From Metallococcus carri (GTDB lineage: Bacteria; Actinomycetota; Actinomycetes; Actinomycetales; Dermatophilaceae), in contig NZ_JAAOIV010000012.1 of assembly GCF_011440275.1 (NCBI RefSeq), positions 1-64,000 of the forward strand: a stretch of DNA of 64,000 bases, in the 5' to 3' direction. Made by a program: the position numbers and the translations under genes. Position 1 is the first letter of the stretch. The number at the start of each line of letters is the position of its first letter. The notes below the pieces were generated by a model. That model was not told the origin of the DNA. It saw only the letters and a program-made list of their open reading frames with translations, and did not search any database. Positions 36,449 through 48,852 of the stretch are shown here, piece by piece.

Positions 36449-38374
36449 ATGACCGCATCTGCCGTTGCGCCGAGGAAGTCCCGGCACCCGGTCGACGAGG
36501 TGCTGCCCGCGCCGAAGCTGCTCGCCTACGGCTTCCAGCACGTGCTGGCGTTCTATGCCGGCGCGGTCGTCGTGCCGATCCTGCTCGCCAACGCGCTCAA
36601 GCTGTCACCGACCCAATTGGTCCACCTGATCAACGCCGACCTGTTCACCTGCGGCATCGCCTCGATCCTGCAGTCGGTCGGTATCTGGAAGATCGGCGTG
36701 CGGCTGCCGCTGCTGCAGGGCGTGACCTTCACCGCGGTGTCGCCGATGATCGCGATCGGCACGGCCGCCGCGTCCGGGACCGAGGGGCTCACCACCATCT
36801 ACGGCGCGGTGATCGTCGCCGGTCTGTTCACCTTCCTGGTGGCGCCCTACTTCAGCAAGCTCATCCGCTTCTTCCCGCCGGTGGTCACCGGCTCGGTCAT
36901 CAGCATCATCGGTCTGGCGCTGCTGCCGGTCGCCGCTGGCGACGCCGTCGGTGGCGCCGGGCCGGCCGGTCGTCCGGAGAGCTGGCGCAATATGGCGTAT
37001 GCGCTCGGCACCCTCGCGCTGATCGTCGCCATCCAGCGCATCTTCAAGGGCTTCATGGCGACCGTCGCGGTGCTGGCCGGCCTGGTCATCGGCACCGCGG
37101 TCGCCTGGGCCTTCGGCGACGCCCAGTTCAGCGAGGTGTCGCAGTCCTCCTGGGTCGGGGTGACCACGCCGTTCTACTTCGGCTGGCCGCAGTTCTCCAT
37201 CGCCGCGATCATCTCGATGATCGTCGTCATGATCATCACCGCGGTCGAGACCACCGGCGACGTCTTCGCCACCGGTGAGATCGTCGAGAAGCGGGTGGGC
37301 CGCACCGACATCGCCCGCGCCTTGCGCGCCGACGGTGCGGCCACGGCCCTCGGTGGCGTCTTCAACTCCTTCCCCTACACCTGCTTCGCCGAGAACGTCG
37401 GCCTGGTGCGGCTGACCCGGGTCAAGAGCCGGTGGGTCGTGGCGACCGCCGGTGCGCTGATGATCGTCATCGGCATGCTGCCCAAGGCGGGGGCGATCGT
37501 GGCCGGCATACCGCATCCGGTGCTCGGTGGCGCGGCGCTCGCGATGTTCGCCACGGTCGCCGTCGTCGGTTTCCAGACCCTGTCGCGCGTGGACTTCCAC
37601 GACCACCGCAATGTCGTCATCGTCGGCACCTCGGTCGGCCTGGCGATGTATGTCACCGCCCAGCCCGATGTGGCCAAGGCGGTGCCGAGCTGGGCGGAGA
37701 TTATCTTCGGCTCCGGCATCACGCTGGGCAGCCTCACCGCGATCATCCTCAACCTGGTCTTCCATCACATCGGCACCAACCGTGGCCCGGCCGTCGCGGG
37801 TGCTCCGGGTGGCCAGGTGCGCCTCAGCGAGGTCAACGCGATGTCGCGCGAGCAGTTCGTGGACACCTTCGGCGGGTTGTTCCAGGGTTCCGCCTGGGCG
37901 GTCGAGCGGGCCTACGACCTGCGGCCCTTCGAGGACACCCTCGATCTGCGCCGGGCGTTCCAGGAGGCATTGTTCGCCGGCTCGCAGGACGAGCAGCGGC
38001 AGCTGATCGAGTCCTATCCCGATCTCGGCGCGGACAGTGTCACCGAGGCCGGGGAGGACAGCGAGTCCTATCGCGACCAGTCGGTCGCGGGGCTCACCCG
38101 GCTGGACCAGCAGGATCACGACGAGCTGGCCGACCTCACCACGCAATACCGTGACCGGTTCGGCTTCCCGCTGGTCACCTGCGTGCGCGACCGCGATTCC
38201 TTCTCGCAGGTGCTGCGGCACGGCTGGCAGCGGTTGGCGAATTCCCCGGCCCAGGAGCACGCGACCGCCCTCATCGAGATCGGCGAGATTGCCGGCCACC
38301 GGTTCGACAACCTGGTCGCCGACGCCAACCCCATCGCCAGCGCCCGGTTCTCGATGGGAGGCTTGGACGCATGA
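36449..38374 (+). CDS. NCS2 uric acid/xanthine permease fused to an OHCU-decarboxylase-like domain
   Basis: A 641-residue fusion. Residues 1 to about 455 are an NCS2 nucleobase permease with 14 helices: FQHVLAFYAGAVVVPILLAN at the start, and the substrate segment ETTGDVFATGEIV. From about 465 a full OHCU-decarboxylase (UraD) domain follows, opening VRLSEVNAMSREQFVDTFGG. Its catalytic His is Tyr523 (SYPDLG) and its catalytic Glu is Asp543 (YRDQS). The 20-residue spacing equals that of active enzymes, so these are substitutions in the exact active-site positions. The domain is therefore probably not an active decarboxylase. A stand-alone uraD follows with a 4-bp overlap. Confidence 0.9.
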   Translation: MTASAVAPRKSRHPVDEVLPAPKLLAYGFQHVLAFYAGAVVVPILLANALKLSPTQLVHLINADLFTCGIASILQSVGIWKIGVRLPLLQGVTFTAVSPMIAIGTAAASGTEGLTTIYGAVIVAGLFTFLVAPYFSKLIRFFPPVVTGSVISIIGLALLPVAAGDAVGGAGPAGRPESWRNMAYALGTLALIVAIQRIFKGFMATVAVLAGLVIGTAVAWAFGDAQFSEVSQSSWVGVTTPFYFGWPQFSIAAIISMIVVMIITAVETTGDVFATGEIVEKRVGRTDIARALRADGAATALGGVFNSFPYTCFAENVGLVRLTRVKSRWVVATAGALMIVIGMLPKAGAIVAGIPHPVLGGAALAMFATVAVVGFQTLSRVDFHDHRNVVIVGTSVGLAMYVTAQPDVAKAVPSWAEIIFGSGITLGSLTAIILNLVFHHIGTNRGPAVAGAPGGQVRLSEVNAMSREQFVDTFGGLFQGSAWAVERAYDLRPFEDTLDLRRAFQEALFAGSQDEQRQLIESYPDLGADSVTEAGEDSESYRDQSVAGLTRLDQQDHDELADLTTQYRDRFGFPLVTCVRDRDSFSQVLRHGWQRLANSPAQEHATALIEIGEIAGHRFDNLVADANPIASARFSMGGLDA

Positions 38375-38859
38375 CCCTCCCGTTCGACACACTGCCCGAC
38401 GGGGAGGTGCGCGCCCGGCTGGCCGCGTGCCTGCCGGTCGCGCGGTGGGTCGATCAGGTCGCCTCCGGCCGGCCGTATGGCGACCGCTCGGCTCTCCTTG
38501 CGGCGGCCGGTGGCGCTGCCGAGCGGTTGAGCGACGAGGAGCTGGACCAGGCGCTCGCCGGCCACCCGCGGATCGGCGAACGCGCCACCTCGCCGCACCA
38601 CCAGGCGGAGCACTCAGCGCGCGAGCAGGCCGGCGTCGATGCGTCCGACGATGGGGTGACGTCGGCACTCGCGCGCGGCAATGCGGCATACGAGCAAAGG
38701 TTCGGGCGGGTGTTCATCATCCGTGCTGCCGGGCGCACGGCCCCGGAGATCCTCGGGGAGCTGCACCGCCGCCTCGACAGCGACGACGCGACCGAACGCG
38801 CCGAGACCGTCGCCCAGCTGCGTGAGATCGCGCTGTTGCGACTGGAAGGGATGCTCTGA
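38371..38859 (+). CDS. uraD: 2-oxo-4-hydroxy-4-carboxy-5-ureidoimidazoline decarboxylase
   Basis: A 162-residue helical enzyme that decarboxylates OHCU to S-allantoin, the last step of urate oxidation. His65 (AGHPRIGE) and Glu85 (SAREQAG) are the catalytic pair, 20 residues apart as in characterised enzymes. NAAYEQRFGRVFIIRAAGR and the closing LREIALLRLE are family segments. Overlap with the permease fusion by ATGA shows translational coupling. This copy is intact, in contrast to the fused domain upstream. Confidence 0.92.
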   Translation: MTLPFDTLPDGEVRARLAACLPVARWVDQVASGRPYGDRSALLAAAGGAAERLSDEELDQALAGHPRIGERATSPHHQAEHSAREQAGVDASDDGVTSALARGNAAYEQRFGRVFIIRAAGRTAPEILGELHRRLDSDDATERAETVAQLREIALLRLEGML

Positions 38860-38860
38860 C

Positions 38861-39187
38861 ATGGGGACGCTCAGCACGCACATTCTCGACACTTCGCGCG
38901 GTCGGCCGGCGCCAGGCGTGACCATCACACTGGAGGACGCAGCGGGTTCGGTTGTGGGACAAGGGGTTACCGACGCCGACGGCCGGGTAGGCACGATCGG
39001 GCCGGAGGTGTTGGAGGCGGGCGACTACCGGTTGCGGTTTGCCGCGAAGGCGTATTTCGACGGGCTCGGTGTCGAGTCGTTCTATCCGGAGGTGGTGGTG
39101 GTCTTCACCATCGCCGACCCCGCTCAGCACTATCACGTGCCGGTGTTGCTCAACCCGTTCGGCTATTCGACCTATCGGGGCAGCTGA
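38861..39187 (+). CDS. uraH: 5-hydroxyisourate hydrolase
   Basis: A 108-residue transthyretin-like protein that opens 5-hydroxyisourate to OHCU. The conserved N-terminal STHILDTSRGRPAPGV supplies the His, the central RLRFAAKAYFD the Arg and the C-terminal YHVPVLLNPFGYSTYRGS the His and the YRGS end that distinguishes the enzyme from transthyretin. It starts one base after the uraD stop. UraH acts before UraD, and the two are usually encoded with a urate oxidase, which is missing here. Confidence 0.95.
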   Translation: MGTLSTHILDTSRGRPAPGVTITLEDAAGSVVGQGVTDADGRVGTIGPEVLEAGDYRLRFAAKAYFDGLGVESFYPEVVVVFTIADPAQHYHVPVLLNPFGYSTYRGS

Positions 39188-39196
39188 GGTGTGGCC

Positions 39197-39340
39197 GTGA
39201 GCGCCGACCGGAGCGAGGACCCGAACGCAGTGAGGCCCGGAGCGATGGCCAGAGGCGCGACGAGGGGCGTGAGCGCCGACCGGAGCGAGGACCCGAACGC
39301 AGTGAGGCCCGGAGCGATGGCCAGAGGCGCGACGAGGGGC
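39197..39340 (+). repeat. 72-bp tandem duplication before glycerate kinase
   Basis: Two identical 72-base copies (39197-39268 and 39269-39340), each opening GTGAGCGCCGACCGGAGCGA and closing GCGCGACGAGGGGC. The unit is 24 codons, so the frame continues into glycerate kinase. The last part of the second copy supplies GAGGGG, the apparent ribosome site of that gene. Confidence 0.92.
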
Positions 39341-39349
39341 GTGGGAACG

Positions 39350-40474
39350 GTGCTGCTGGCCCCCGACAAGTTCAAGGGCACGTTGACCGCGGTCGAGGTG
39401 GCCGCAGCGGTCAGTGCGGGGATCGCCTCGGTCGATGCGTCGGTGCGCCTGGTGACGGTGCCGGTGGCCGACGGTGGCGACGGCACGGTCGCGGCTGCGG
39501 TGGCGGCCGGCTTCGAGCAGGTCACCACCGAGGTCACCGGGCCGGTCGGTGCGCCGGTGACGGCGACCTGGGCGCGTCGCGGCGACGAGGCGGTGGTCGA
39601 GCTCGCGGAGGCATCGGGGATTGCCTTGCTGGGTGATGCGCTGGACCCGATGGGTGCGACCTCGCGGGGCACCGGCGAGTTGATCGCGGCAGCCCTCGAC
39701 GCCGGTTGTCGCCGCATCGTGGTCGGGATCGGCGGCAGCGCCTGCACCGACGGGGGCCTCGGTCTGGTGCAAGCGCTCGGGGCAAAAGCGTTGTCGGACA
39801 ACGGATCTGATGCGTCCTTTGGTGGGGCTGCGCTCAGGTCAGTGGCAACGCTCGACCTCGCTGATCTGCATCCGGGGCTGGCCCGCGCCGAGATCATCGT
39901 CGCCAGTGACGTCGACAACCCGCTGCTCGGCGAGCGCGGGGCGGCGGCGGTCTATGGCCCGCAGAAGGGCGCATCAGCCGACCAGGTCCGCGAGCTGGAC
40001 AGCGGTCTCGCACATTGGGCGGACGTCGTGGCTGGTGCGACGGGAGCCGACCATCGCGACGACGCCGGCGCGGGTGCTGCCGGCGGTGCGGGGTTCGGGC
40101 TGATCGCGGTGCTCGGTGCCTCGACCGCCCCGGGAGCGCCGATGCTCTTCGAGCTCACCGGCTTTGCGGCCGCGCTCGCCGAAGCCGATCTCGTCGTGAC
40201 CGGTGAGGGCAAACTCGACCGGCAGACTCTGCACGGCAAGGCACCGGCCGCAGTGGCCGCGGCTGCTCGCGACGCAGAAGTCCCGGTGATCGCGGTGTGC
40301 GGCACCGTCGACCTGCCCGAGCGGGAGTGGCGGGCGGCCGGCATACGGGATGTTTATGCGCTCCTGGACCAGACCACGGATCCGGACGAGGCGATGACCC
40401 GACCGGCTCCGCTCCTGCGCCGCATCGGCGCGGCGATCGCTCGAGATCACTTGTCGCAGAAGGGAATCCGATGA
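39350..40474 (+). CDS. glxK: Glycerate 2-kinase (GarK/GlxK family)
   Basis: A 374-residue kinase that phosphorylates D-glycerate, the end product of the glyoxylate branch fed by ureidoglycolate. The N-terminus VLLAPDKFKGTLTAVEVA and the central GGSACTDGGLGLVQALGAK are family signatures; VTGEGKLDRQTLHGKAP is the C-terminal nucleotide motif. I use GTG 39350 with GAGGGG 10 nt upstream. The frame stays open back to 39191 through the tandem repeat, and an extended protein with a repeat-derived N-terminus cannot be excluded. Confidence 0.9.
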   Translation: MLLAPDKFKGTLTAVEVAAAVSAGIASVDASVRLVTVPVADGGDGTVAAAVAAGFEQVTTEVTGPVGAPVTATWARRGDEAVVELAEASGIALLGDALDPMGATSRGTGELIAAALDAGCRRIVVGIGGSACTDGGLGLVQALGAKALSDNGSDASFGGAALRSVATLDLADLHPGLARAEIIVASDVDNPLLGERGAAAVYGPQKGASADQVRELDSGLAHWADVVAGATGADHRDDAGAGAAGGAGFGLIAVLGASTAPGAPMLFELTGFAAALAEADLVVTGEGKLDRQTLHGKAPAAVAAAARDAEVPVIAVCGTVDLPEREWRAAGIRDVYALLDQTTDPDEAMTRPAPLLRRIGAAIARDHLSQKGIR

Positions 40475-41298
40475 ACCAGTATTACGTGCCGCGCGGCGGC
40501 CTTCCGCCCCAGACCGAGCTGACGACCGACCGGTCGATGTTCACCGAGGCGTATGCCGTGATCCCGCGGCGCACGCTGTCGGATATCACCACCTCGCTGC
40601 TGCCCTTCTGGGACGAGACGCGGCTGTGGGTGATTGCTCGCCCGCTGTCCGGCTTCGCCGAGACCTTCAGCCACTACATCGTGGAGGTGTCACCGGGCGG
40701 AGGCTCGGACCGCCCGGAGACCGACCCGGGCGCCGAGGCGGTGCTCTTCGTCGTCGACGGCGGCCTCACCCTGACCCTGGACGGGGCGGCGCACGAGCTC
40801 GAGCCCGGCAGCTATGCCTTCCTGCCGCCGGGTGCGCAGTGGACGCTGCGCAATGGCACCGGCGCGAAGGCATCATTCCACTGGATCCGCAAGGCCTATC
40901 AGCAGATCGACGGCATCGAAGTGCCCCCGGCATTCGTGACTCACGAGCGTGATGTCGAGCTGGGCGCCATGCCGGACACCGATGGCAAGTGGTGCACCCA
41001 GCGGTTCACCGACCCGGCCGACATCCGGCACGACATGCACGTCAACATCGTGACCTTCGAGCCGGGCGGCGCGATCACCTTCCCCGAGACGCATGTGATG
41101 GAGCACGGGCTCTACGTGCTGGAGGGCAAGGCGGTCTACTTGCTCAACACCGACTGGGTCGAAGTGCAGGAGGGCGACTACATGTGGCTGCGGGCCTTCT
41201 GCCCGCAGGCCTGTTATGCCGGTGGGCCGGGCCGCTTCCGCTATCTGCTCTACAAGGACGTCAACCGGCATATGACGTTGTCGCGCCAGTTCGTCTGA
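40471..41298 (+). CDS. allE: (S)-ureidoglycine aminohydrolase, bicupin
   Basis: A 275-residue bicupin that releases ammonia from S-ureidoglycine to give S-ureidoglycolate. The N-terminus NQYYVPRGGLPPQTELTTDR and the YAVIPRRTLSDITTSLLPFWD segment are characteristic. The C-terminal cupin carries the metal set in TFPETHVMEHGLYVLEGKAVY (Glu, His, His) with a Gln late in the domain. It overlaps glycerate kinase by ATGA. It presupposes allantoate amidohydrolase activity, which could be supplied by the M20 gene at 21.8 kb or from elsewhere. Confidence 0.9.
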   Translation: MNQYYVPRGGLPPQTELTTDRSMFTEAYAVIPRRTLSDITTSLLPFWDETRLWVIARPLSGFAETFSHYIVEVSPGGGSDRPETDPGAEAVLFVVDGGLTLTLDGAAHELEPGSYAFLPPGAQWTLRNGTGAKASFHWIRKAYQQIDGIEVPPAFVTHERDVELGAMPDTDGKWCTQRFTDPADIRHDMHVNIVTFEPGGAITFPETHVMEHGLYVLEGKAVYLLNTDWVEVQEGDYMWLRAFCPQACYAGGPGRFRYLLYKDVNRHMTLSRQFV

Positions 41299-41324
41299 CG
41301 GGTCGGCTGGGCCGGGTGCGTCGG

Positions 41325-41505
41325 GCGCCTCGCGACCGGCGCAAAACGCCCAAGTGGGCGATTGGTGCGCCTGGGGCGCCTCGCGACCGGCGCAAAACGC
41401 CCACGTGGGCGATTGGTGCGCCTGGGGCGCCTCGCGACCGGCGCAAAACGCCCATTGGTGCACCCGGAGCGCCTCGCGACCTGCGCAAAACGCCCACGTG
41501 GGCGG
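41325..41505. repeat. 51-bp-period palindromic array C, four units
   Basis: Four units of GCGCCTCGCGACCGGCGCAA plus AACGCCCA...TGGGCG start at 41325, 41376, 41427 and 41469. The first two steps are 51 bases and the third is 42, because unit three has lost 9 bases of the palindrome. The core is that of arrays A and B with loops AG, CG and CG. The array fills the gap between allE and the antitoxin gene, and I see no gene in it. Confidence 0.88.
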
Positions 41506-41552
41506 GTGGCGCACCGGGTGTTGTCGGCTGCATCTGATGCCATGATGTTGCG

Positions 41553-41801
41553 ATGCGTACGACGCTCGATCTCGACGACAAGGTGCTGGCGGCGGCCCGA
41601 TCATTGGCACGCTCGCAGGGCACCTCGCTCGGTCGTGCGGTGTCCGACCTGGCGTTGCGAGGGCTCGCCGGCGGCGGGTCATCGGACGGCCGCGCACTCG
41701 TCAATGTCAGCTACGCCAGCTCTCCGGTTCTCGTCGGCGATCCTGCAACTGTCGTGACCGACGAGGACGTCGCTGCGCACCGCGATCCGACGTGTCGGTG
41801 A
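41553..41801 (+). CDS. VapB-like ribbon-helix-helix antitoxin
   Basis: An 82-residue protein. Residues 1-40 are a ribbon-helix-helix DNA-binding domain: MRTTLDLDDKVLAAARSLAR as strand plus helix, then GTSLGRAVSDLALRGLAG. The C-terminal 40 residues should bind a PIN toxin. The stop overlaps the start of the toxin remnant by 3 bases in the usual vapBC manner. Since the toxin is truncated, the antitoxin is an orphan, although it may still bind DNA. Confidence 0.8.
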   Translation: MRTTLDLDDKVLAAARSLARSQGTSLGRAVSDLALRGLAGGGSSDGRALVNVSYASSPVLVGDPATVVTDEDVAAHRDPTCR

Positions 41802-41956
41802 CGATCGGTCACCAACTCGTCACCGACTTCCACCTCGTCAACTGCGCCGCTCGGCATGGATTTCGGCTGGCAACCTTCGATGCGGCACTTGTCGGTGCGG
41901 TGGCGCCAGGGGATCGGGCGAACATCATCCTGTGGGGAACCCGAGATTCCACATAG
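41798..41956 (+). pseudogene. Truncated VapC PIN-domain toxin remnant
   Basis: A 52-codon frame from GTG 41798 that reads GHQLVTDFHLVNCAARHGFR and then LATFDAALVG, the C-terminal third of a PIN domain with the TD-x-L and TFD acidic motifs. The N-terminal two thirds with the first catalytic Asp are absent, so no ribonuclease activity is expected. Its stop codon lies inside the second purine-island palindrome. Confidence 0.78.
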
Positions 41957-41962
41957 AGGAAT
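41946..41962. promoter_or_regulatory. Operator 2 of the purine island (ATTCC-N7-GGAAT), upstream of xdhA
   Basis: ATTCCACATAGAGGAAT has 5-base perfect arms and the same geometry as the palindrome at 36407-36425. TTCCATT at 41968-41974 adds a further half-site. It lies about 167 bases before the xdhA start. Confidence 0.72.
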
Positions 41963-42055
41963 AAGGGTTCCATTAGCGGCCATCGCCGGTTAGTGTGGTC
42001 GGCGTCACGTGGTGTTCTGCATGGATAACCGGCACGTGATCTCACCCGCAACCAT

Positions 42056-42082
42056 GCTTCCACCCGGCCTTCGGGTGGGTGC
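42056..42082 (+). promoter_or_regulatory. Hairpin in the xdhA leader
   Basis: CCACCCG (42060-42066) pairs with CGGGTGG (42072-42078) around GCCTT, and GC/GC pairs extend it. It ends 47 bases before the xdhA start and lacks a T-run. Upstream, TCACGTGG (42005-42012) and GGCACGTGA (42031-42039) form a spaced inverted pair. Together they may be regulatory; I found no known riboswitch pattern. Confidence 0.45.
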
Positions 42083-42128
42083 AGCATGAAGGATGCGCTC
42101 CGTCGTGGGGCGTGGCGCGAGGAGGGAC

Positions 42129-43568
42129 ATGACCGACAGCCCAACGGTCTCGGTGAACGGGACCAGCTACAGCCTGCACGGCACACCACCGTGGATGTCC
42201 CTGCTCGATTTTGTCCGCTCCCAAGGCCTGACCGGCGCGAAAGAGGGATGCGCCGAAGGCGAGTGCGGTGCCTGCTCAGTGCTCGTGGTCCGGCCCGACG
42301 GTGACCAGGCCAGCCGGTGGACCGCGCTCAACGCCTGCCTCACCCCGGCGGTCGCCTTCGCCAGCCAGGAGGTCGTCACCTCCGAGGGCCTGGGTGAGCC
42401 GGACGCGCTGCACCCCGTGCAGCATGAGATGGCCGTGCGTGGTGGCTCCCAATGTGGTTACTGCACACCGGGATTCATCTGCAGTATGGCGTCCGAGTAC
42501 TACCGCCCCGGTCGCGAAGGGCATGGCGAGGGCGATGCCGAGCACGGTGCCAACGGTTTCGACATCCACTCCCTCTCGGGCAACCTGTGCCGCTGCACCG
42601 GATATCGGCCGATCCGGGACGCAGCCTTCGCCCTGGGGTCGCCGGAGACCGACGACCGGTTCGCAGCGCGGTGTGCCGCGCCGGCCCCTGCTCACCCGAC
42701 TGCTGAAGTCACGGTCGACGGTGCGACCTTCCTGCGCCCCGGCACGCTCGATGAGGCACTGGCTGCGCTGAGCGCCCACCCCGACGCGGTGCTGGTCGCC
42801 GGCTCGACCGACTGGGGAGTGGAGGCCAACCTGCGCGGGTCGCGCGCGGCATACCTCATCGGGATCGACCGGCTCGACGAACTGCGCGAGCTCACCATCG
42901 GCGAGGACGCCATCCAGATCGGTGCTGCGCTGACGTTGTCGGAGATCGAACGCCAGCTTGAGGGTCGAATCCCGTTGCTGGACAAGCTGTTTCCGCAGTT
43001 CGCGTCCCGGTTGATCCGCAATGGCGCAACCATCGGCGGCAACCTCGGCACCGGTTCGCCGATCGGTGACACTCCACCGGCCCTGCTCGCGCTCGAAGCA
43101 TCGCTGGTGCTCGCCGGGCCAGGTGGTGAGCGCACCGTGCCCCTGGCCGACTACTTCACCGGTTATCGACAGACCGTGTGCGCGCCGGACGAACTCATCA
43201 AGGCCGCGCGGATCCCGTTGCCGCTCAGCCCGATCACCGCCTTCCACAAGATCGCCAAGCGACGCTTCGACGACATCTCGAGCGTCGCGGTCGGCCTCGC
43301 GCTTGAGACAGAGGCCGGCGTCATCAGCAAGGCCCGAATCGGCCTCGGCGGAGTCGCCGCCACGCCCATCCGCGCCCTAGCCACTGAGGCCGCGCTCGAA
43401 GGATCACCGTGGTCCCGGGAGACCTTCGTGCGGGCGGCGGGCGTCCTGCGCGAGGAAGGCACGCCGATGGACGACCACCGCGCCAGCTCGGCATACCGCA
43501 AGGCGATGCTCGGCACCGCTCTGCTGCGGTTGCACCGCGACGAAAGCCCCCAGGAGGCCACCGCATGA
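42129..43568 (+). CDS. xdhA: Xanthine dehydrogenase small subunit (2Fe-2S and FAD)
   Basis: A 479-residue protein joining two modules. The ferredoxin part (about 1-80) has C41, C46 and C49 in CAEGECGAC; the second cluster domain has QCGYCTPGF and NLCRCTGYRPI. From about 200 the FAD domain follows with VLVAGSTDWG and the FAD-binding NGATIGGNLGTGSPIGD. It passes electrons from the molybdenum site to NAD+ during oxidation of hypoxanthine and xanthine to urate. GGAGGG lies just upstream of ATG 42129. It is the first gene of a six-gene operon. Confidence 0.95.
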   Translation: MTDSPTVSVNGTSYSLHGTPPWMSLLDFVRSQGLTGAKEGCAEGECGACSVLVVRPDGDQASRWTALNACLTPAVAFASQEVVTSEGLGEPDALHPVQHEMAVRGGSQCGYCTPGFICSMASEYYRPGREGHGEGDAEHGANGFDIHSLSGNLCRCTGYRPIRDAAFALGSPETDDRFAARCAAPAPAHPTAEVTVDGATFLRPGTLDEALAALSAHPDAVLVAGSTDWGVEANLRGSRAAYLIGIDRLDELRELTIGEDAIQIGAALTLSEIERQLEGRIPLLDKLFPQFASRLIRNGATIGGNLGTGSPIGDTPPALLALEASLVLAGPGGERTVPLADYFTGYRQTVCAPDELIKAARIPLPLSPITAFHKIAKRRFDDISSVAVGLALETEAGVISKARIGLGGVAATPIRALATEAALEGSPWSRETFVRAAGVLREEGTPMDDHRASSAYRKAMLGTALLRLHRDESPQEATA

Positions 43569-45982
43569 GCTCCCTGTCTGAACGTCCGAGCAAACCCGTT
43601 GTCGGACAAGAGATTCCACACGAGGCCGCCAGCCAGCATGTGACCGGGCGCGCGCTCTACACGGACGACCTGGTCGTGCGGCACCCCGGCATACTGCACG
43701 CGCATCCGGTGCAGTCAACCGTCGCGCACGCGAAGGTGACCCGGCTCGACGTCGAGCCCGCGCTGCGCGTGCCCGGGGTGGTCCGGGTGCTCACCGCCGC
43801 CGATGTCCCGGGGGTCAACGACGCCGGGATCAAGCACGACGAGCCGCTCTTCCCCGACGAGGTGATGTTCCACGGCCACGCGATCTGCTGGGTGCTCGGC
43901 GAAACCCTGGAAGCGGCCCGGCTCGGCGCGGCGGCGGTCGAGGTCGATTACGAGCCACTGCCAGCCCTGATGACCGTGCCCGAAGCCATTGCGGCAGAAA
44001 GCTTTCAGGGCGCTCAGCCCCTCATGGAGCGCGGTGATGTGTCCGCGGGATTTGCCCGGGCGACGCGCGTCTTCAGCGGGGAGTTCGAGTTCGCCGGTCA
44101 GGAGCACTTCTATCTCGAGACGCACTGCTCGCTCGCGGTGGTCGACGAGAACGGCCAGATCTTCATCCAGAGCAGCACCCAACACCCCAGTGAGACCCAG
44201 GACATCGTGTCGCACGTCCTCGGTGTGCCGGGTCACGCGGTGACCGTGCAATGCCTGCGGATGGGCGGCGGTTTCGGCGGCAAGGAGATGCAGCCGCACG
44301 GTTTCGCCGCCATCGCGGCGCTTGGTGCGACCCTCACCGGTCGGCCAGTTCGGTTGCGGCTCAACCGAACTCAAGACATGACCATGTCCGGCAAGCGGCA
44401 TGGGTTCCACGCCACCTGGCGCGTCGGCTTCGACGACGAGGGCCGAGTGCAGGCGCTGGACACGACCATCACCGCCGACGGTGGCTGGAGTCTCGACCTG
44501 TCCGAGCCGGTGCTCGCGCGGGCGCTGTGTCATCTGGACAACGCCTATTGGATCCCCGAATTCCGCGCCCTCGGGCGGATTGCCAAGACCCACAAGACCT
44601 CCCAGACCGCCTTCCGCGGTTTCGGCGGTCCGCAGGGGATGCTCGTCTTCGAGGACATCCTCGGGCGCTGCGCCCCCGCGCTCGGCATACCGGCACACGA
44701 GCTGCGTCGGCGCAATTTCTACACCGACGGCCAGTCCACGCCATACGGCCAGCCGGTCCGGCATGCCTCCCGGGCCGCGACCTGTTGGGAGCAGGTATGG
44801 CGCGACGGCGACCTGGAGACGCGACTCGCCGAGGTCCAGCGCTTCAACGACAGCCACGAAGACATCAAGCGCGGCCTGGCGATCACGCCGGTGAAATTCG
44901 GGATCTCCTTCAACCTCACCGCGTTCAACCAGGGTGGGGCGCTCGTGCTCGTCTACAAGGACGGGTCGGTGCTGATCAACCACGGCGGCACCGAGATGGG
45001 TCAGGGCCTGCACACCAAGATGCTGCAGGTCGCCGCCACCGCGCTCGGGCTGCCGCTGTCGAAGGTGCGGCTCGCGCCGACCCGAACCGACAAGGTGCCT
45101 AACACCTCGGCCACCGCCGCATCCTCAGGTGCCGACCTCAACGGCGGGGCGGTGAAGAACGCGTGCGAGCAGATCATCGAGCGGTTGCGAGTGGTGGCAA
45201 GCGGCAAGCTCGGCGTGCCCGCGGCGGACATCCGGTTCGCCGACGGCGTGGTCAGCGGGCTCGGCACCAAGGCGACGATCGAGTGGGACGAACTGGTGAA
45301 AGCCGCCTATTTCCAACGGGTTCAGCTGTCAGCGGCCGGTTACTACCGCACCGAGGGGCTGCACTGGGACTCCTCGGTGATGCAGGGCTCGCCGTTCAAA
45401 TACTTCGCCTATGGCGTGGCTGCGACCGAGGTCGAGGTCGACGGCCTCACCGGTGCCTACACGACCCGGCGGGTGGACATCGTGCACGACGTGGGCGACT
45501 CGCTGTCGCCGCTGGTGGACATCGGCCAGGTTGAGGGCGGCTTCGTGCAGGGCGCGGGCTGGCTGACCCTGGAGGACCTGCGGTGGGACACCTCCGACCG
45601 GCCAACCCGTGGTCGCCTTGCCACCCAGGCCGCCTCGACCTACAAGCTGCCGAGCTTCTCGGAGGTGCCGGCCGAGTTCAACGTCCGGCTGCTCGAGGAT
45701 GCGCACGAGGACGGCGCGGTCTACGGCTCCAAGGCGGTCGGCGAGCCCCCGCTGATGCTGGCCTTCTCGGTGCGCGAGGCACTCCGCCAGGCCGCCGCGG
45801 CCTTCGGCGCTCCTGGGGTGTGCGTCGACCTCGCCTCGCCGGCGACCCCCGAAGCCGTCTATTGGGCGATCGAGTCCGCGCGCGCCGGTGGGTGGACGCC
45901 CGACGACGATGTTGCGGTCGATCACGCGCGCACCGCGGGCGACCGGCACCCGGACTCCGAGCGCGAAACTGTCGGAGTCTGA
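43565..45982 (+). CDS. xdhB: Xanthine dehydrogenase molybdopterin-binding subunit
   Basis: An 805-residue catalytic subunit. The Moco-binding loop RMGGGFGGKEMQ is at about 230-241. TAFRGFGGPQGM carries the Arg that orients purines. The segment GSKAVGEPPLMLAFSVREAL includes the active-site Glu that starts hydroxylation. The N-terminus IPHEAASQHVTGRALYTDD is that of XdhB. Start overlaps xdhA by ATGA. The length is normal for two-subunit bacterial enzymes. Confidence 0.95.
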   Translation: MSSLSERPSKPVVGQEIPHEAASQHVTGRALYTDDLVVRHPGILHAHPVQSTVAHAKVTRLDVEPALRVPGVVRVLTAADVPGVNDAGIKHDEPLFPDEVMFHGHAICWVLGETLEAARLGAAAVEVDYEPLPALMTVPEAIAAESFQGAQPLMERGDVSAGFARATRVFSGEFEFAGQEHFYLETHCSLAVVDENGQIFIQSSTQHPSETQDIVSHVLGVPGHAVTVQCLRMGGGFGGKEMQPHGFAAIAALGATLTGRPVRLRLNRTQDMTMSGKRHGFHATWRVGFDDEGRVQALDTTITADGGWSLDLSEPVLARALCHLDNAYWIPEFRALGRIAKTHKTSQTAFRGFGGPQGMLVFEDILGRCAPALGIPAHELRRRNFYTDGQSTPYGQPVRHASRAATCWEQVWRDGDLETRLAEVQRFNDSHEDIKRGLAITPVKFGISFNLTAFNQGGALVLVYKDGSVLINHGGTEMGQGLHTKMLQVAATALGLPLSKVRLAPTRTDKVPNTSATAASSGADLNGGAVKNACEQIIERLRVVASGKLGVPAADIRFADGVVSGLGTKATIEWDELVKAAYFQRVQLSAAGYYRTEGLHWDSSVMQGSPFKYFAYGVAATEVEVDGLTGAYTTRRVDIVHDVGDSLSPLVDIGQVEGGFVQGAGWLTLEDLRWDTSDRPTRGRLATQAASTYKLPSFSEVPAEFNVRLLEDAHEDGAVYGSKAVGEPPLMLAFSVREALRQAAAAFGAPGVCVDLASPATPEAVYWAIESARAGGWTPDDDVAVDHARTAGDRHPDSERETVGV

Positions 45983-45983
45983 G

Positions 45984-46790
45984 ATGGATTGGTATGCCGC
46001 GCTCGGTCACCTGCGGTCCGCGCGTCGCCCCGCAGTGCTGGTCACGCTGACGGCCGTGCGGGGCCATGCGCCTCGGGCGGCGGGCGCCAAGATGGTGGTC
46101 GGCACCGACGAGACCTGGGACTCGATCGGCGGCGGCAACCTCGAGCAGGTGGCGATCAGCCGCGCCCGCGAACTCATCACCGGCGGCTCGGTGGACCCCC
46201 AGACCCTGACGATTCCGTTGTCGGACAAGGCATCTGGCGAGTTCGGACAGCAGTGCTGCGGGGGAGAGGTGTCGATCCTGCTCGAGCCGGTGCCGGTCCG
46301 GCCGTCGATTGCGATCTTCGGCATGGGCCATGTCGGGCTGGAGCTCGCCCACATCTTGGCCCGGCATCCGGTGGAACTGCACCTGGTCGACTCGCGACCG
46401 CACGCGGCGGCAGCTTTCGCGGTCACCGACGCGATCGCGCAGGTGGTGACCCACGACTCGCCGGTCCCCGAGCTGGTGCTCGGCGAAGTTCCGCCCGGCA
46501 CCCACGTGCTCGTGCTCACCCACGACCACGCCGAAGACGCCGCCATCTGTGACGCTGCGCTCAGGTGCGAGCACCTGGCATCCGTCGGGCTGATCGGATC
46601 CCGGGCGAAGTGGTCACGCTTCCGCAAGGCGTTGCTCGAGCAGGGACACGACGAGGCGCGCGTGGACGGCATACGGACTCCGATCGGTGACCCGGCGATC
46701 GGCGGCAAGGCGCCGGCGATGATCGCACTGAGCGTGGCGGCCGAGCTCACAGCCGCGCTGTGGCCGCAGGCCGAGCGGGTCCAGCGATGA
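45984..46790 (+). CDS. xdhC: Xanthine dehydrogenase accessory protein XdhC
   Basis: A 268-residue chaperone that binds molybdenum cofactor and promotes its sulfuration and insertion into XdhB. The N-terminal XdhC_CoxI part has VRGHAPRAAGAKMVV and the EFGQQCCGGEVSILLE segment, whose two Cys are conserved in the family. The Rossmann part reads IFGMGHVGLELAHIL. GIRTPIGDPAIGGKAPAMIALSVAAEL closes the protein. It starts one base after the xdhB stop. Confidence 0.93.
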   Translation: MDWYAALGHLRSARRPAVLVTLTAVRGHAPRAAGAKMVVGTDETWDSIGGGNLEQVAISRARELITGGSVDPQTLTIPLSDKASGEFGQQCCGGEVSILLEPVPVRPSIAIFGMGHVGLELAHILARHPVELHLVDSRPHAAAAFAVTDAIAQVVTHDSPVPELVLGEVPPGTHVLVLTHDHAEDAAICDAALRCEHLASVGLIGSRAKWSRFRKALLEQGHDEARVDGIRTPIGDPAIGGKAPAMIALSVAAELTAALWPQAERVQR

Positions 46791-48082
46791 GGATCTTCCG
46801 TGCGACCGTTCTGGACACTCCGGACGACCCGTTCACGGGAGGTGCGCTGCGCGTCGATCATGATGGCGGGATTGCCGTTGAGCACGACGGAATCGTTTGT
46901 GCGAGAGGCGGATTCGCTGACGTCGTTCGGGACTATCCCGACGCCGAGGTCGTCGACCTGCGCCCTGGACTGCTGCTGCCGGGCTTCGTCGACACCCACG
47001 TGCACCTGCCTCAGGTGCGGGTCATCGGCGCGCTCGGGATGCCGTTGCTGGACTGGCTCGACAAGTGCGCCCTCCCCGAGGAGGCGCGGATGGCCGACCC
47101 GGCATACGCCCGGGCCGTCGGCGCGGAGATCCTGCGCGGGCTGGTCGCCGCGGGCACGACGAGCGCGCTGGTCTTCGGGGCGCACTTCCGCCCGGCGATG
47201 GAGGCTTTCGCCGACGCAGTGCACGAGAGCGGGTTGCGGATCACGACGGGTCTCGTGGTCGCCGATCGTGTGCTGCCCGAGTCGCTGCTGACCACTCCGC
47301 AGCGGGCGTATGACGATGCCGTCGCCCTCGCCGACGCCTGGGCTGACACGGGTCTGCGGTATGCCGTGACGCCGCGCTTCTCGCTGTCGTCGTCATCGGA
47401 GCTGCTGGACGCCTGCGGTGCGGTCGCCTATGCCCGGCCGGATGTTTTCGTGACCTCGCATGTCAACGAGAACCCGGTCGAGGTGGAGCGGGTGCGGGAA
47501 CTGCATGGCACGGACTACGTGTCGACCTACGAGAAGTACGGATTGCTCGGTGGCTCAACGGTGCTCGCGCACAACGTGCACCCCAGTGACGACGAGCTGC
47601 GGTTGCTCGCGGCGCGCCGCACCAGCGTGGCGCACTGCCCGACGAGCAATAGCGCGCTGGGCAGCGGACTGTTCCCGCTGCGCCGGCACCGGCTGGCCGG
47701 CGTGCGGGTGGCGCTCGGCAGCGATGTCGGTGCCGGGACCGGGCTGTCGCTGTTGAAGGAGGGCTTGCAGGCCTACTTCATGCAGCAGCTGCTCGGCAAC
47801 CAGGGTGAACCGCTGACCGCGGCCCACCTGCTGCACCTGGCCACCGCCGCGGGTGCCGACGCACTCGGGCTGCACCAGGTCGGCGACCTGTCGGTGGGCA
47901 AGGAATTCGACGCGGTCTGGGTGTCGCCGCGGAGCGATGGTGTGCTGGCCGGTGCGCTGGAGCACGCCAAGGACGCCGAGGACGCGCTGGCCAAGGTCTT
48001 CGCACTCGGCACCGACGCCGACCTGGGGGGAGTCTGGATCGGCGGTCAGGTGCCGCTGGCCCGGCATACACTCGTTCCGTGA
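46787..48082 (+). CDS. guaD: Guanine deaminase
   Basis: A 431-residue amidohydrolase converting guanine to xanthine, the substrate of the dehydrogenase encoded just upstream. PGFVDTHVHLPQVRVIG holds the first two metal His. TSHVNENPVEVERVRELHG, LAHNVHPSDDEL and GSDVGAGTGLSLL complete the zinc site and the purine pocket. It overlaps xdhC and the following iclR by ATGA/GTGA. The context leaves little doubt about the substrate. Confidence 0.94.
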   Translation: MRIFRATVLDTPDDPFTGGALRVDHDGGIAVEHDGIVCARGGFADVVRDYPDAEVVDLRPGLLLPGFVDTHVHLPQVRVIGALGMPLLDWLDKCALPEEARMADPAYARAVGAEILRGLVAAGTTSALVFGAHFRPAMEAFADAVHESGLRITTGLVVADRVLPESLLTTPQRAYDDAVALADAWADTGLRYAVTPRFSLSSSSELLDACGAVAYARPDVFVTSHVNENPVEVERVRELHGTDYVSTYEKYGLLGGSTVLAHNVHPSDDELRLLAARRTSVAHCPTSNSALGSGLFPLRRHRLAGVRVALGSDVGAGTGLSLLKEGLQAYFMQQLLGNQGEPLTAAHLLHLATAAGADALGLHQVGDLSVGKEFDAVWVSPRSDGVLAGALEHAKDAEDALAKVFALGTDADLGGVWIGGQVPLARHTLVP

Positions 48083-48852
48083 CGCAAGAGCAGACTTCCG
48101 CGGCGCGAGAGACCCGCAGCAAGGGCGTGCAGTCGCTCGGGCGCGCGTTCGTCGTGCTGGAGACCATGGCCGACGCCGGCGGGGTGGTGGGGCTCTCGCA
48201 GCTGGCGACCATGGCGCAGATGCCGCTGCCGACCATCCACCGGATCGTGCGCACGCTCGTCGACCTCGGCTATGTCCGGCAGGAGGCGAACCGGGAATAT
48301 TCGTTGGGGCCCAAGCTGATTCGCCTCGGTGACGTCACCTCGCAGATGGTCGGACGGTGGGCCCGGCCGCAGCTGGAGGAGGTCGTGCGCCGGCTCGGGG
48401 AGTCGGCCAATGTCGCTCAACTCGACGGCGACCGAGTCGTCTACATCGGTCAGGTCATGCCCTCGCACAACTCGATGCGGATGTTCACCGAGGTCGGGCG
48501 GGCGGTGCTGCCGCACGCCACGGGCGTCGGCAAGGCGATCATGGCGACGATGACCGCGGACGAGGTCGATGCGCTGCTCGACCGCACCGGTATGCCGTCC
48601 CGCACCGAGCACACCATCACCGACCGGGACGCCTTCCACGCCGAGCTCGACGCGACCCGTGAGCGGGGTTATGCGCTCGACGAGCAGGAGCAGGAGCTTG
48701 GGGTGCGCTGCGTCGCGGTGTCGGTGCCGGCCCCGGGTCGGCGGCTCGCGCTGTCGGTCTCTGGCCCGCTCACCCGGATGACTGATGCGGTCGTCAGCGA
48801 GGCGCTCGCGCCCTTGCACGAAGCCGCCGAGCGGATCGCCCACCAGTTGTGA
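48079..48852 (+). CDS. IclR family regulator of the purine island
   Basis: A 257-residue IclR protein, 257 residues from GTG 48079. The winged helix spans about 15-80: SLGRAFVVLETMADAGGVVG, then LPTIHRIVRTLVDLGYV as the recognition helix. The effector domain follows with LGESANVAQLDGDRVVYIG and the end LGVRCVAVSVPAP. It is embedded in the xdh operon, and two similar palindromes precede the two arms of the island. I infer that it is an AllR-like repressor responding to a urate or allantoin-pathway metabolite such as glyoxylate. Confidence 0.87.
   Translation: MTQEQTSAARETRSKGVQSLGRAFVVLETMADAGGVVGLSQLATMAQMPLPTIHRIVRTLVDLGYVRQEANREYSLGPKLIRLGDVTSQMVGRWARPQLEEVVRRLGESANVAQLDGDRVVYIGQVMPSHNSMRMFTEVGRAVLPHATGVGKAIMATMTADEVDALLDRTGMPSRTEHTITDRDAFHAELDATRERGYALDEQEQELGVRCVAVSVPAPGRRLALSVSGPLTRMTDAVVSEALAPLHEAAERIAHQL

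Follow-up and report, generated by a model that had tools for sequence, protein, structure and literature searches.

An NCS2 permease ending in a UraD-fold domain that has lost its catalytic histidine, in Metallococcus carri and other Actinomycetota

Why would a membrane importer carry, as its last third, a copy of a urate-breakdown enzyme without its catalytic residues, when an intact copy of the same enzyme is encoded directly downstream? This question is raised by a gene of Metallococcus carri found in a stretch of 64,000 nucleotides (positions 1 to 64,000 of contig NZ_JAAOIV010000012.1, assembly GCF_011440275.1; hereafter, the window). The gene (36449..38374, forward strand) is a single open frame of 641 codons, in which the first two thirds encode an NCS2 permease of the pbuX type and the last third encodes a domain of the 2-oxo-4-hydroxy-4-carboxy-5-ureidoimidazoline (OHCU) decarboxylase, UraD, the enzyme that turns OHCU into (S)-allantoin. 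A stand-alone uraD (38371..38859, +) overlaps the fused gene by 4 bases and retains its catalytic residues, His65 (38563-38565) and Glu85 (38623-38625). We consider, with a probability of about 0.5, that the tail domain is an ancient, selected pseudoenzyme, which most likely has a structural or docking function in the import of urate or xanthine.

The nature of the tail (37835..38305, +) is indicated by several lines of evidence. PF09349 matches residues 463-619 of the fused protein (136 bits, cut-off 24; 140.5 bits on the genome) and TIGR03164 matches residues 465-621 (112.7 bits, cut-off 96.25). When the domain is modelled alone (mean predicted local distance difference test, pLDDT, 89.6), its best match by Foldseek is the zebrafish OHCU decarboxylase 2o70 (root-mean-square deviation, rmsd, 1.6 Å; template modelling score 0.93 by target length and 0.82 by query length), and further fold matches include Atu2327, Klebsiella UraD and others. 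A chance alignment of the tail with UraD is thus ruled out by profile, structure and family evidence. In the alignment, Tyr523 (codon 38015..38017, +) occupies the column of zebrafish His67 and Asp543 (38075..38077, +) that of Glu87, two residues that we take to be catalytic; Arg618 (38300..38302, +) occupies the position of Arg161, which presumably contacts the ligand. The window domain therefore lacks both catalytic marks of UraD, as the His of the HP motif is Tyr and the Glu of the SxxEQ motif is Asp. Profiles, alignment and fold consequently bear out, for the window, the preliminary description of this locus as a permease fused to a UraD domain devoid of both catalytic residues and adjacent to an intact uraD. 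That description also considered the comparison position-exact because of the equal spacing; although the two columns are indeed 20 residues apart in the window domain, in the adjacent UraD and in 2o70, loop length varies among fused domains and the spacing alone is, consequently, little proof.

The permease part (residues about 1-445; 36449..37783, +) is similarly well defined. TIGR03173 matches residues 27-439 (524 bits, cut-off 414), TIGR00801 matches residues 20-437 (370 bits, cut-off 292) and PF00860 is also above its cut-off. In the model of the full protein (pLDDT 86.5; predicted template modelling score, pTM, 0.72), the membrane part has the predicted UapA/UraA fold, with UapA bound to xanthine (5i6c) as the best match (Z 48.8, rmsd 2.6, 427 aligned residues), followed by UraA (Z 43.9) and, among more distant matches, by SLC26 carriers (Z up to 35.7). 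The protein bears the sequence ENVGLVRLTR at residues 315-324, which resembles what we take to be the NAT signature, [QE]-N-x-G-x4-T; in 38 aligned fusions, position 315 is Glu in 36 and Gln in 2, and N316, G318, T323 and E267 (presumably the Glu of the eighth transmembrane helix, TM8) are found in all 38. The linker between the last helix and the domain comprises 13-21 amino acids in these fusions. The permease subfamily and the neighbouring genes suggest that urate or xanthine is the cargo.

Whether the loss of the catalytic residues is peculiar to the window was examined in Actinomycetota genomes and one plasmid collection. A scan of genome contigs with the fused-domain alignment, whose two peptide patterns were drawn from close fused relatives and did not include the His position, confirmed 121 stretches, of which the best 80 were kept. 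In all of these best 80 loci, the UraD domain shares its open frame with an NCS2 permease and, when the window is added, the His column contains Tyr in 54 cases, Phe in 27 and His in none, and the Glu column contains Asp in 80 and Glu in 1. This set was then enlarged with relatives, class, phylum and two plasmids, and compared with unfused domains in a tally that omits UraD matches below 40 bits or 120 amino acids and rows with identical last 70 residues. In the His column, the resulting 85 distinct permease-fused domains have Tyr in 59 cases and Phe in 26, and never His; in the Glu column, they have Asp in 78 cases and Glu in 7. By contrast, the 155 unfused domains have His in 144 cases, Glu in nine and Tyr in two, where the Glu belongs to nine divergent paralogs (family code f35) that have no HP..SxxEQ stretch and in which the column is not truly aligned, and the two Tyr rows represent another divergent stand-alone paralog. 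Before the divergent paralogs joined the set, His was present in 0/82 fused and 105/105 unfused domains. Consequently, His loss is the defining change of the fused family, while the change from Glu to Asp is conservative and not universal. A lone decay event, against which the preliminary description had proposed to check other fusions, is ruled out by the absence of His from all 85 fused domains examined. The claim that both catalytic residues are lost, though true of the window, does not extend to every member of the family, since both positions are changed in 78 of the 85 domains.

Other positions of the old active site are affected unequally. Arg161 is kept in all 85 fused domains, Phe119 is Leu in all of them and Pro68 is kept in 79, but Asn108 is replaced by Ala or Thr in 72. 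The His67 column is always aromatic and the Glu87 column always acidic; as Phe occupies the His67 site in 26 domains, there is no substitute acid or base at this site in those copies. Additionally, the loop after His67 is shortened in fused copies of the Rhodococcus/Gordonia/Mycobacterium type. We also looked for permease fusions bearing an intact His. Among the class-wide UraD matches listed, about 46 rows have frames longer than 500 amino acids; 20 loci were taken from these rows, none of which is permease-fused and all of which keep the HP motif. In the plasmid collection, 39 of 601 records covered at least 80% of the full-length query at a single site. Those read among the 15 matches listed were the true fusions of R. 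qingshengii and R. radiotolerans, neither of which has His, and three pairs of abutting genes. As the genomes sampled were all from Actinomycetota, a fusion bearing His may exist in another phylum. Among the relatives of the window, a close relative of the fused domain (at least 54% identity) is present in 13 of 58 genomes, the genome of M. carri included.

The divergent stand-alone paralogs are worth describing separately. Ten loci of family code f35 (L165, L166, L168, L171-L176 and L178, Streptomyces-like) encode a UraD-like protein of about 200 amino acids that lacks the HP..SxxEQ stretch and keeps the rest, which is possibly another dead UraD. A further paralog, of family code f22, has Tyr at the catalytic His (QAYPDIG in L169) and lies on a long branch (L169:1465-2592, minus strand; L167:1219-1710, plus strand); this His loss apparently occurred independently.

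Fused copies are accompanied by other UraD genes. All 34 fusion genomes tested (34 of the 80 loci) contain one or more additional UraD matches that do not lie in the permease frame, compared with any UraD in 150/296 genomes of the class; the catalytic residues of unfused domains were read within the 155-row tally rather than for every UraD match in the 34 genomes. A stand-alone UraD lies within 64 of 81 loci, window included. Among the 17 loci without a scored one, 14 have xanthine dehydrogenase matches, L043 has a UraD match split in two, and L054 and L094 have none of the query genes. In the window, the tail cannot be a recent duplicate of the adjacent uraD, because they belong to different subfamilies that are far apart in the tree: the fused domain reaches only 44 bits with TIGR03180 and is of the TIGR03164 type, while its neighbour is of the TIGR03180 type (168 bits, cut-off 139).

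Has the tail been retained by selection? The ratio of nonsynonymous to synonymous substitution rates (dN/dS), calculated by the NG86 method for the same 60 random locus pairs (permease identity 0.80-0.96) and omitting the 17 loci mentioned above, is lowest in the permease (0.126), intermediate in the fused domain (0.192) and highest in the stand-alone UraD (0.242). The mean identities in 2016 pairs are 0.719, 0.628 and 0.581, respectively. The lower dN/dS indicates that the fused domain is held tighter than the stand-alone UraD, and the view of the preliminary description that the domain is retained can now be expressed as purifying selection.

Although selection persists, it seems to have moved within the domain. 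Of the positions conserved in 17 intact relatives (family code f63), 30 thinned fused rows kept 4 of 22 inside zebrafish residues 66-108 and 18 of 34 outside (Fisher p 0.012). Nine positions are newly conserved in the fused domains, all of them outside this stretch and none inside. Mean column entropy inside 66-108 is 1.95 in fused and 0.76 in intact rows, while outside it is 1.33 and 1.21, respectively. In addition, a C-terminal Ala-Asn-Pro extension is found in 25-26 of the 30 fused rows. As the active-site stretch has lost constraint and new conserved positions have appeared elsewhere, this shift argues for a role of the body or surface of the domain over the reading of OHCU in the old pocket.

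Regarding the origin of the fusion, a tree of the domain was built with 106 rows, namely the 103 sequences left of 222 by thinning at 75% identity and three references. The fused domains form one clade (support 100/93). The stand-alone UraDs among which it is nested belong for the most part to family code f63 and are grouped with 2o70 and Atu2327; of the stand-alone rows, L213 (f104) and L191 (f63) come closest to the fused clade. A long, fully supported branch separates this group from the remaining 54 stand-alone rows, including the UraD of the window. One f63 row that was checked (L200) is of the TIGR03164 type (184.5 bits). Family f63 probably includes Rubrobacter radiotolerans, since the UraD regions of its plasmid fusion (L218) and of G423 (L222) are identical, and in the four f63 cases read (L225-L228) the fused gene is followed by an intact uraD. 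Moreover, in two Deinococcus strains and in Priestia filamentosa, plasmids carry the NCS2 permease gene and uraD as separate, abutting genes (4-base overlap or 3 bases between them); uraH and, in Deinococcus, uricase come next, and these UraDs keep His and Glu. Such abutting genes with intact residues suggest a route from operon to fusion, catalytic death and retention. In P. filamentosa (L229:2992-4818), permease and uraD are in the same frame, 3 bases apart, in what may be called a near-fusion.

Taking these data together, the reading that we favour can be outlined as follows. A UraD of the TIGR03164 type is joined to an NCS2 permease, its catalytic His is replaced in every fused copy examined and the domain is retained. 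The C-terminus of NCS2 carriers is cytoplasmic, and the tail, which would no longer decarboxylate OHCU, is proposed to act as a cytosolic structural or docking module of an importer whose presumed cargo is urate or xanthine. It might stabilise the importer or, alternatively, hold soluble UraD and UraH at the membrane, so that imported urate would be processed near its entry; the scaffold for UraD and UraH suggested in the preliminary description is thus possible. UraD is a homodimer and NCS2 carriers dimerise. Distances of the fused domain correlate with those of UraD (partial r 0.76 given the permease; 34 of the 64 loci after thinning).

Several observations weigh against this reading. Within two groups, the correlation of the fused domain is 0.27 and 0.55 with UraD and 0.36 and 0.65 with UraH; as it is no stronger with UraD than with UraH, docking to UraD is offered here as a hypothesis only. 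The conserved Arg161, Pro68 and other pocket residues would equally be needed by a ligand sensor. With regard to the conservation shift, the limits 66-108 were drawn once the data had been inspected, and the taxonomic range of the 30 fused rows is broader than that of the 17 intact ones. The peptide patterns of the scan, being those of close relatives, under-sample more distant fusions. Finally, in the permease tree (LG+G4, with some long branches), the fused label needs three changes: 33 fused rows form one group with two unfused rows, and two f63 fusions group with unfused Deinococcus permeases. A single fusion event is consequently unproved even though the domains form one clade; there may have been two fusions, or the domain may have been swapped or lost. 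The two unfused permeases within the main fused group (L234 and L247, both from the Streptomyces-like genome G210, f35) lack the UraD domain, which suggests that it is dispensable somewhere; domain loss is a possibility here. The 24 unfused NCS2 rows of this tree have no UraD domain in the permease frame, and in a named Streptomyces plasmid record, a 61%-identical permease is likewise matched over residues 8-445 only.

Other explanations have to be weighed against the structural or docking tail. Part of the probability given to it, about half, belongs to a narrower form, in which the tail is a folding or stability module of the permease alone, clamping the homodimer without any pathway partner. 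The short linker and the spread of conservation across the domain body are consistent with such a clamp, as is the C-terminal STAS domain borne by SLC26 carriers, which have a similar membrane fold. By itself, this form leaves unexplained why a fold from the urate pathway was chosen, although gene adjacency before the fusion could account for it. A different proposal, which we consider doubtful but still the most serious competitor, is that the dead pocket has kept the ability to bind OHCU, allantoin or urate and that the importer is thereby gated by feedback, as happens with the inactive NUDT9-H domain of human TRPM2. As a precedent, this channel is activated by ADP-ribose and its NUDT9-H domain has lost catalysis (PMC6461439 and PMC4974056). 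The invariant Arg161, together with the acidic and aromatic residues always found at the Glu87 and His67 columns, would suit it. However, conservation of the fused domains is lowest in the active-site stretch, Asn108 is mostly replaced and Rhodococcus/Gordonia/Mycobacterium-type copies have a shortened loop following His67. The sensor or substrate-trap idea of the preliminary description is, consequently, less supported, given the conservation lost at zebrafish residues 66-108 and gained elsewhere.

Two further alternatives appear considerably weaker. It is improbable that the domain remains a decarboxylase, acting through other residues as a membrane-bound UraD. The window copy does pass the NCBI equivalog cut-off of TIGR03164 and the R. 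radiotolerans copy is annotated as uraD; in addition, OHCU also decays without any enzyme, with a half-life of 9.6 min (PMC4562309), and even weak help might be selected. These arguments face the change of His in every fused copy, the change of both positions in most of them and the further UraD in each of the genomes tested. Least probable, and strongly disfavoured, is the idea that an operon fusion left the domain behind as a neutral, simply tolerated remnant. The loss of catalysis and the two f35 permeases without the domain would agree with it, but its dN/dS is lower than that of the stand-alone UraD, there are new conserved positions and a C-terminal extension, and the domain has been kept from the Rubrobacter-containing family to the class of the window.

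How does this arrangement compare with known systems? The tail resembles UraD (PF09349, TIGR03164; 2o70, 2o8i, 3o7h) in fold, in a family score above cut-off and in its Arg161, but it differs in being carried by a transporter, in the absence of His, in having mostly Asp for Glu and in the lack of conservation of the active-site stretch. Similarly, the permease resembles NCS2/NAT transporters (UapA, UraA, PbuX) in its models above cut-offs, its fold and its signature, but the unfused NCS2 rows compared have no UraD domain. SLC26 carriers also combine a similar membrane fold with a cytosolic C-terminal domain; however, the fused tail folds as UraD and not as STAS, and the likeness is one of position, not of homology. 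Dead enzyme folds are known to serve animal transporters: 4F2hc and rBAT (SLC3) are glycosidase-like subunits of this kind, although they are separate, extracellular and of unrelated fold. Another parallel is vertebrate TRPM2, a membrane protein in which a C-terminal homologue of a soluble enzyme, NUDT9-H, has lost catalysis and been kept (PMC6461439). The proteins are unrelated, ligand gating of the fused importer is conjectural and its active-site stretch is eroded; indeed, if the TRPM2 case is taken as one of lost catalysis with a kept pocket, the fused domains have lost His and kept Arg161, but their active-site stretch is variable. Invertebrate TRPM2 is still active (PMC6461439), while none of the fused copies found here has an intact His. 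By analogy with these animal channels and transporters, the fused importer can be viewed as a further instance of a dead enzyme domain, in bacteria. Other fusions of UraD join enzymes of one pathway, such as the plant UraD-UraH protein (PMC2834698) and a UraD-uricase fusion that UraD matches under pucL-named features in Deinococcus plasmids point to; here, by contrast, UraD is joined to a permease and has no catalytic His. No description of the permease-UraD fusion was found in the open-licence PMC literature, the only literature searched, and the domain architecture may already be known to Pfam curators.

The genes that follow uraD in the window at 38861..48852 are on the forward strand. They encode UraH, the hydroxyisourate hydrolase (38861..39187; TIGR02962, 127 bits, cut-off 87), glycerate kinase (39191..40474; TIGR00045, 372 bits from residue 54), (S)-ureidoglycine aminohydrolase (40471..41298; NF008376, 514 bits, cut-off 338) and the xanthine dehydrogenase small subunit, molybdopterin subunit and XdhC accessory protein (42093..46790; TIGR02963, 407 bits, below its cut-off of 467; TIGR02965, 920 bits, cut-off 849.5; TIGR02964, 245 bits, cut-off 161.6). 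Guanine deaminase (NF006679, 437 bits, cut-off 351; TIGR02967, 358 bits, below its cut-off of 375) and an IclR-type regulator, with all models below their cut-offs, follow at 46760..48852. A uricase is located on another contig of this genome. The open reading frame of glycerate kinase begins with a perfect 72-bp tandem repeat (39196-39343, 2.1 copies), so the true start is probably downstream. Counting related copies at other sites, the genome has 13 matches to this repeat, including arrays on contigs C1 and C20, and it therefore looks dispersed.

If the favoured reading is correct, bacteria would have their own equivalent of the dead enzyme domains found on transporters and channels of animals. 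Its evolution could plausibly have led from neighbouring genes through fusion and catalytic death to retention, and the intact sister enzyme would serve as a built-in control. A practical consequence is that annotation can mislabel such fusions as decarboxylases, since the window copy passes the NCBI cut-off. The R. radiotolerans plasmid fusion (L218:5603-7600), for instance, is annotated as uraD, OHCU decarboxylase, yet it is a 665-amino-acid permease fusion in which Tyr replaces His. The gene order of the R. qingshengii plasmid, permease fusion, uraD, uraH and uricase, is, by annotations alone, also that of msmeg_1293-1296 of Mycobacterium smegmatis; these genes rise 3.5- to 4-fold in nitrogen- versus carbon-limited culture (PMC4617892). 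If msmeg_1293 is itself a fusion, the laboratory strain of M. smegmatis may, consequently, offer a direct test of the role of the tail. More speculatively, and with the odds against it, there could be across Actinomycetota a class of importers in which the dead tail enzyme forms mixed assemblies with the living one and couples urate uptake to breakdown, as a transporter-anchored metabolon, or in which it works as a feedback gate answering to OHCU; the tail would then have been fixed before the split between Rubrobacter-type bacteria and Actinomycetes, or exchanged between them.

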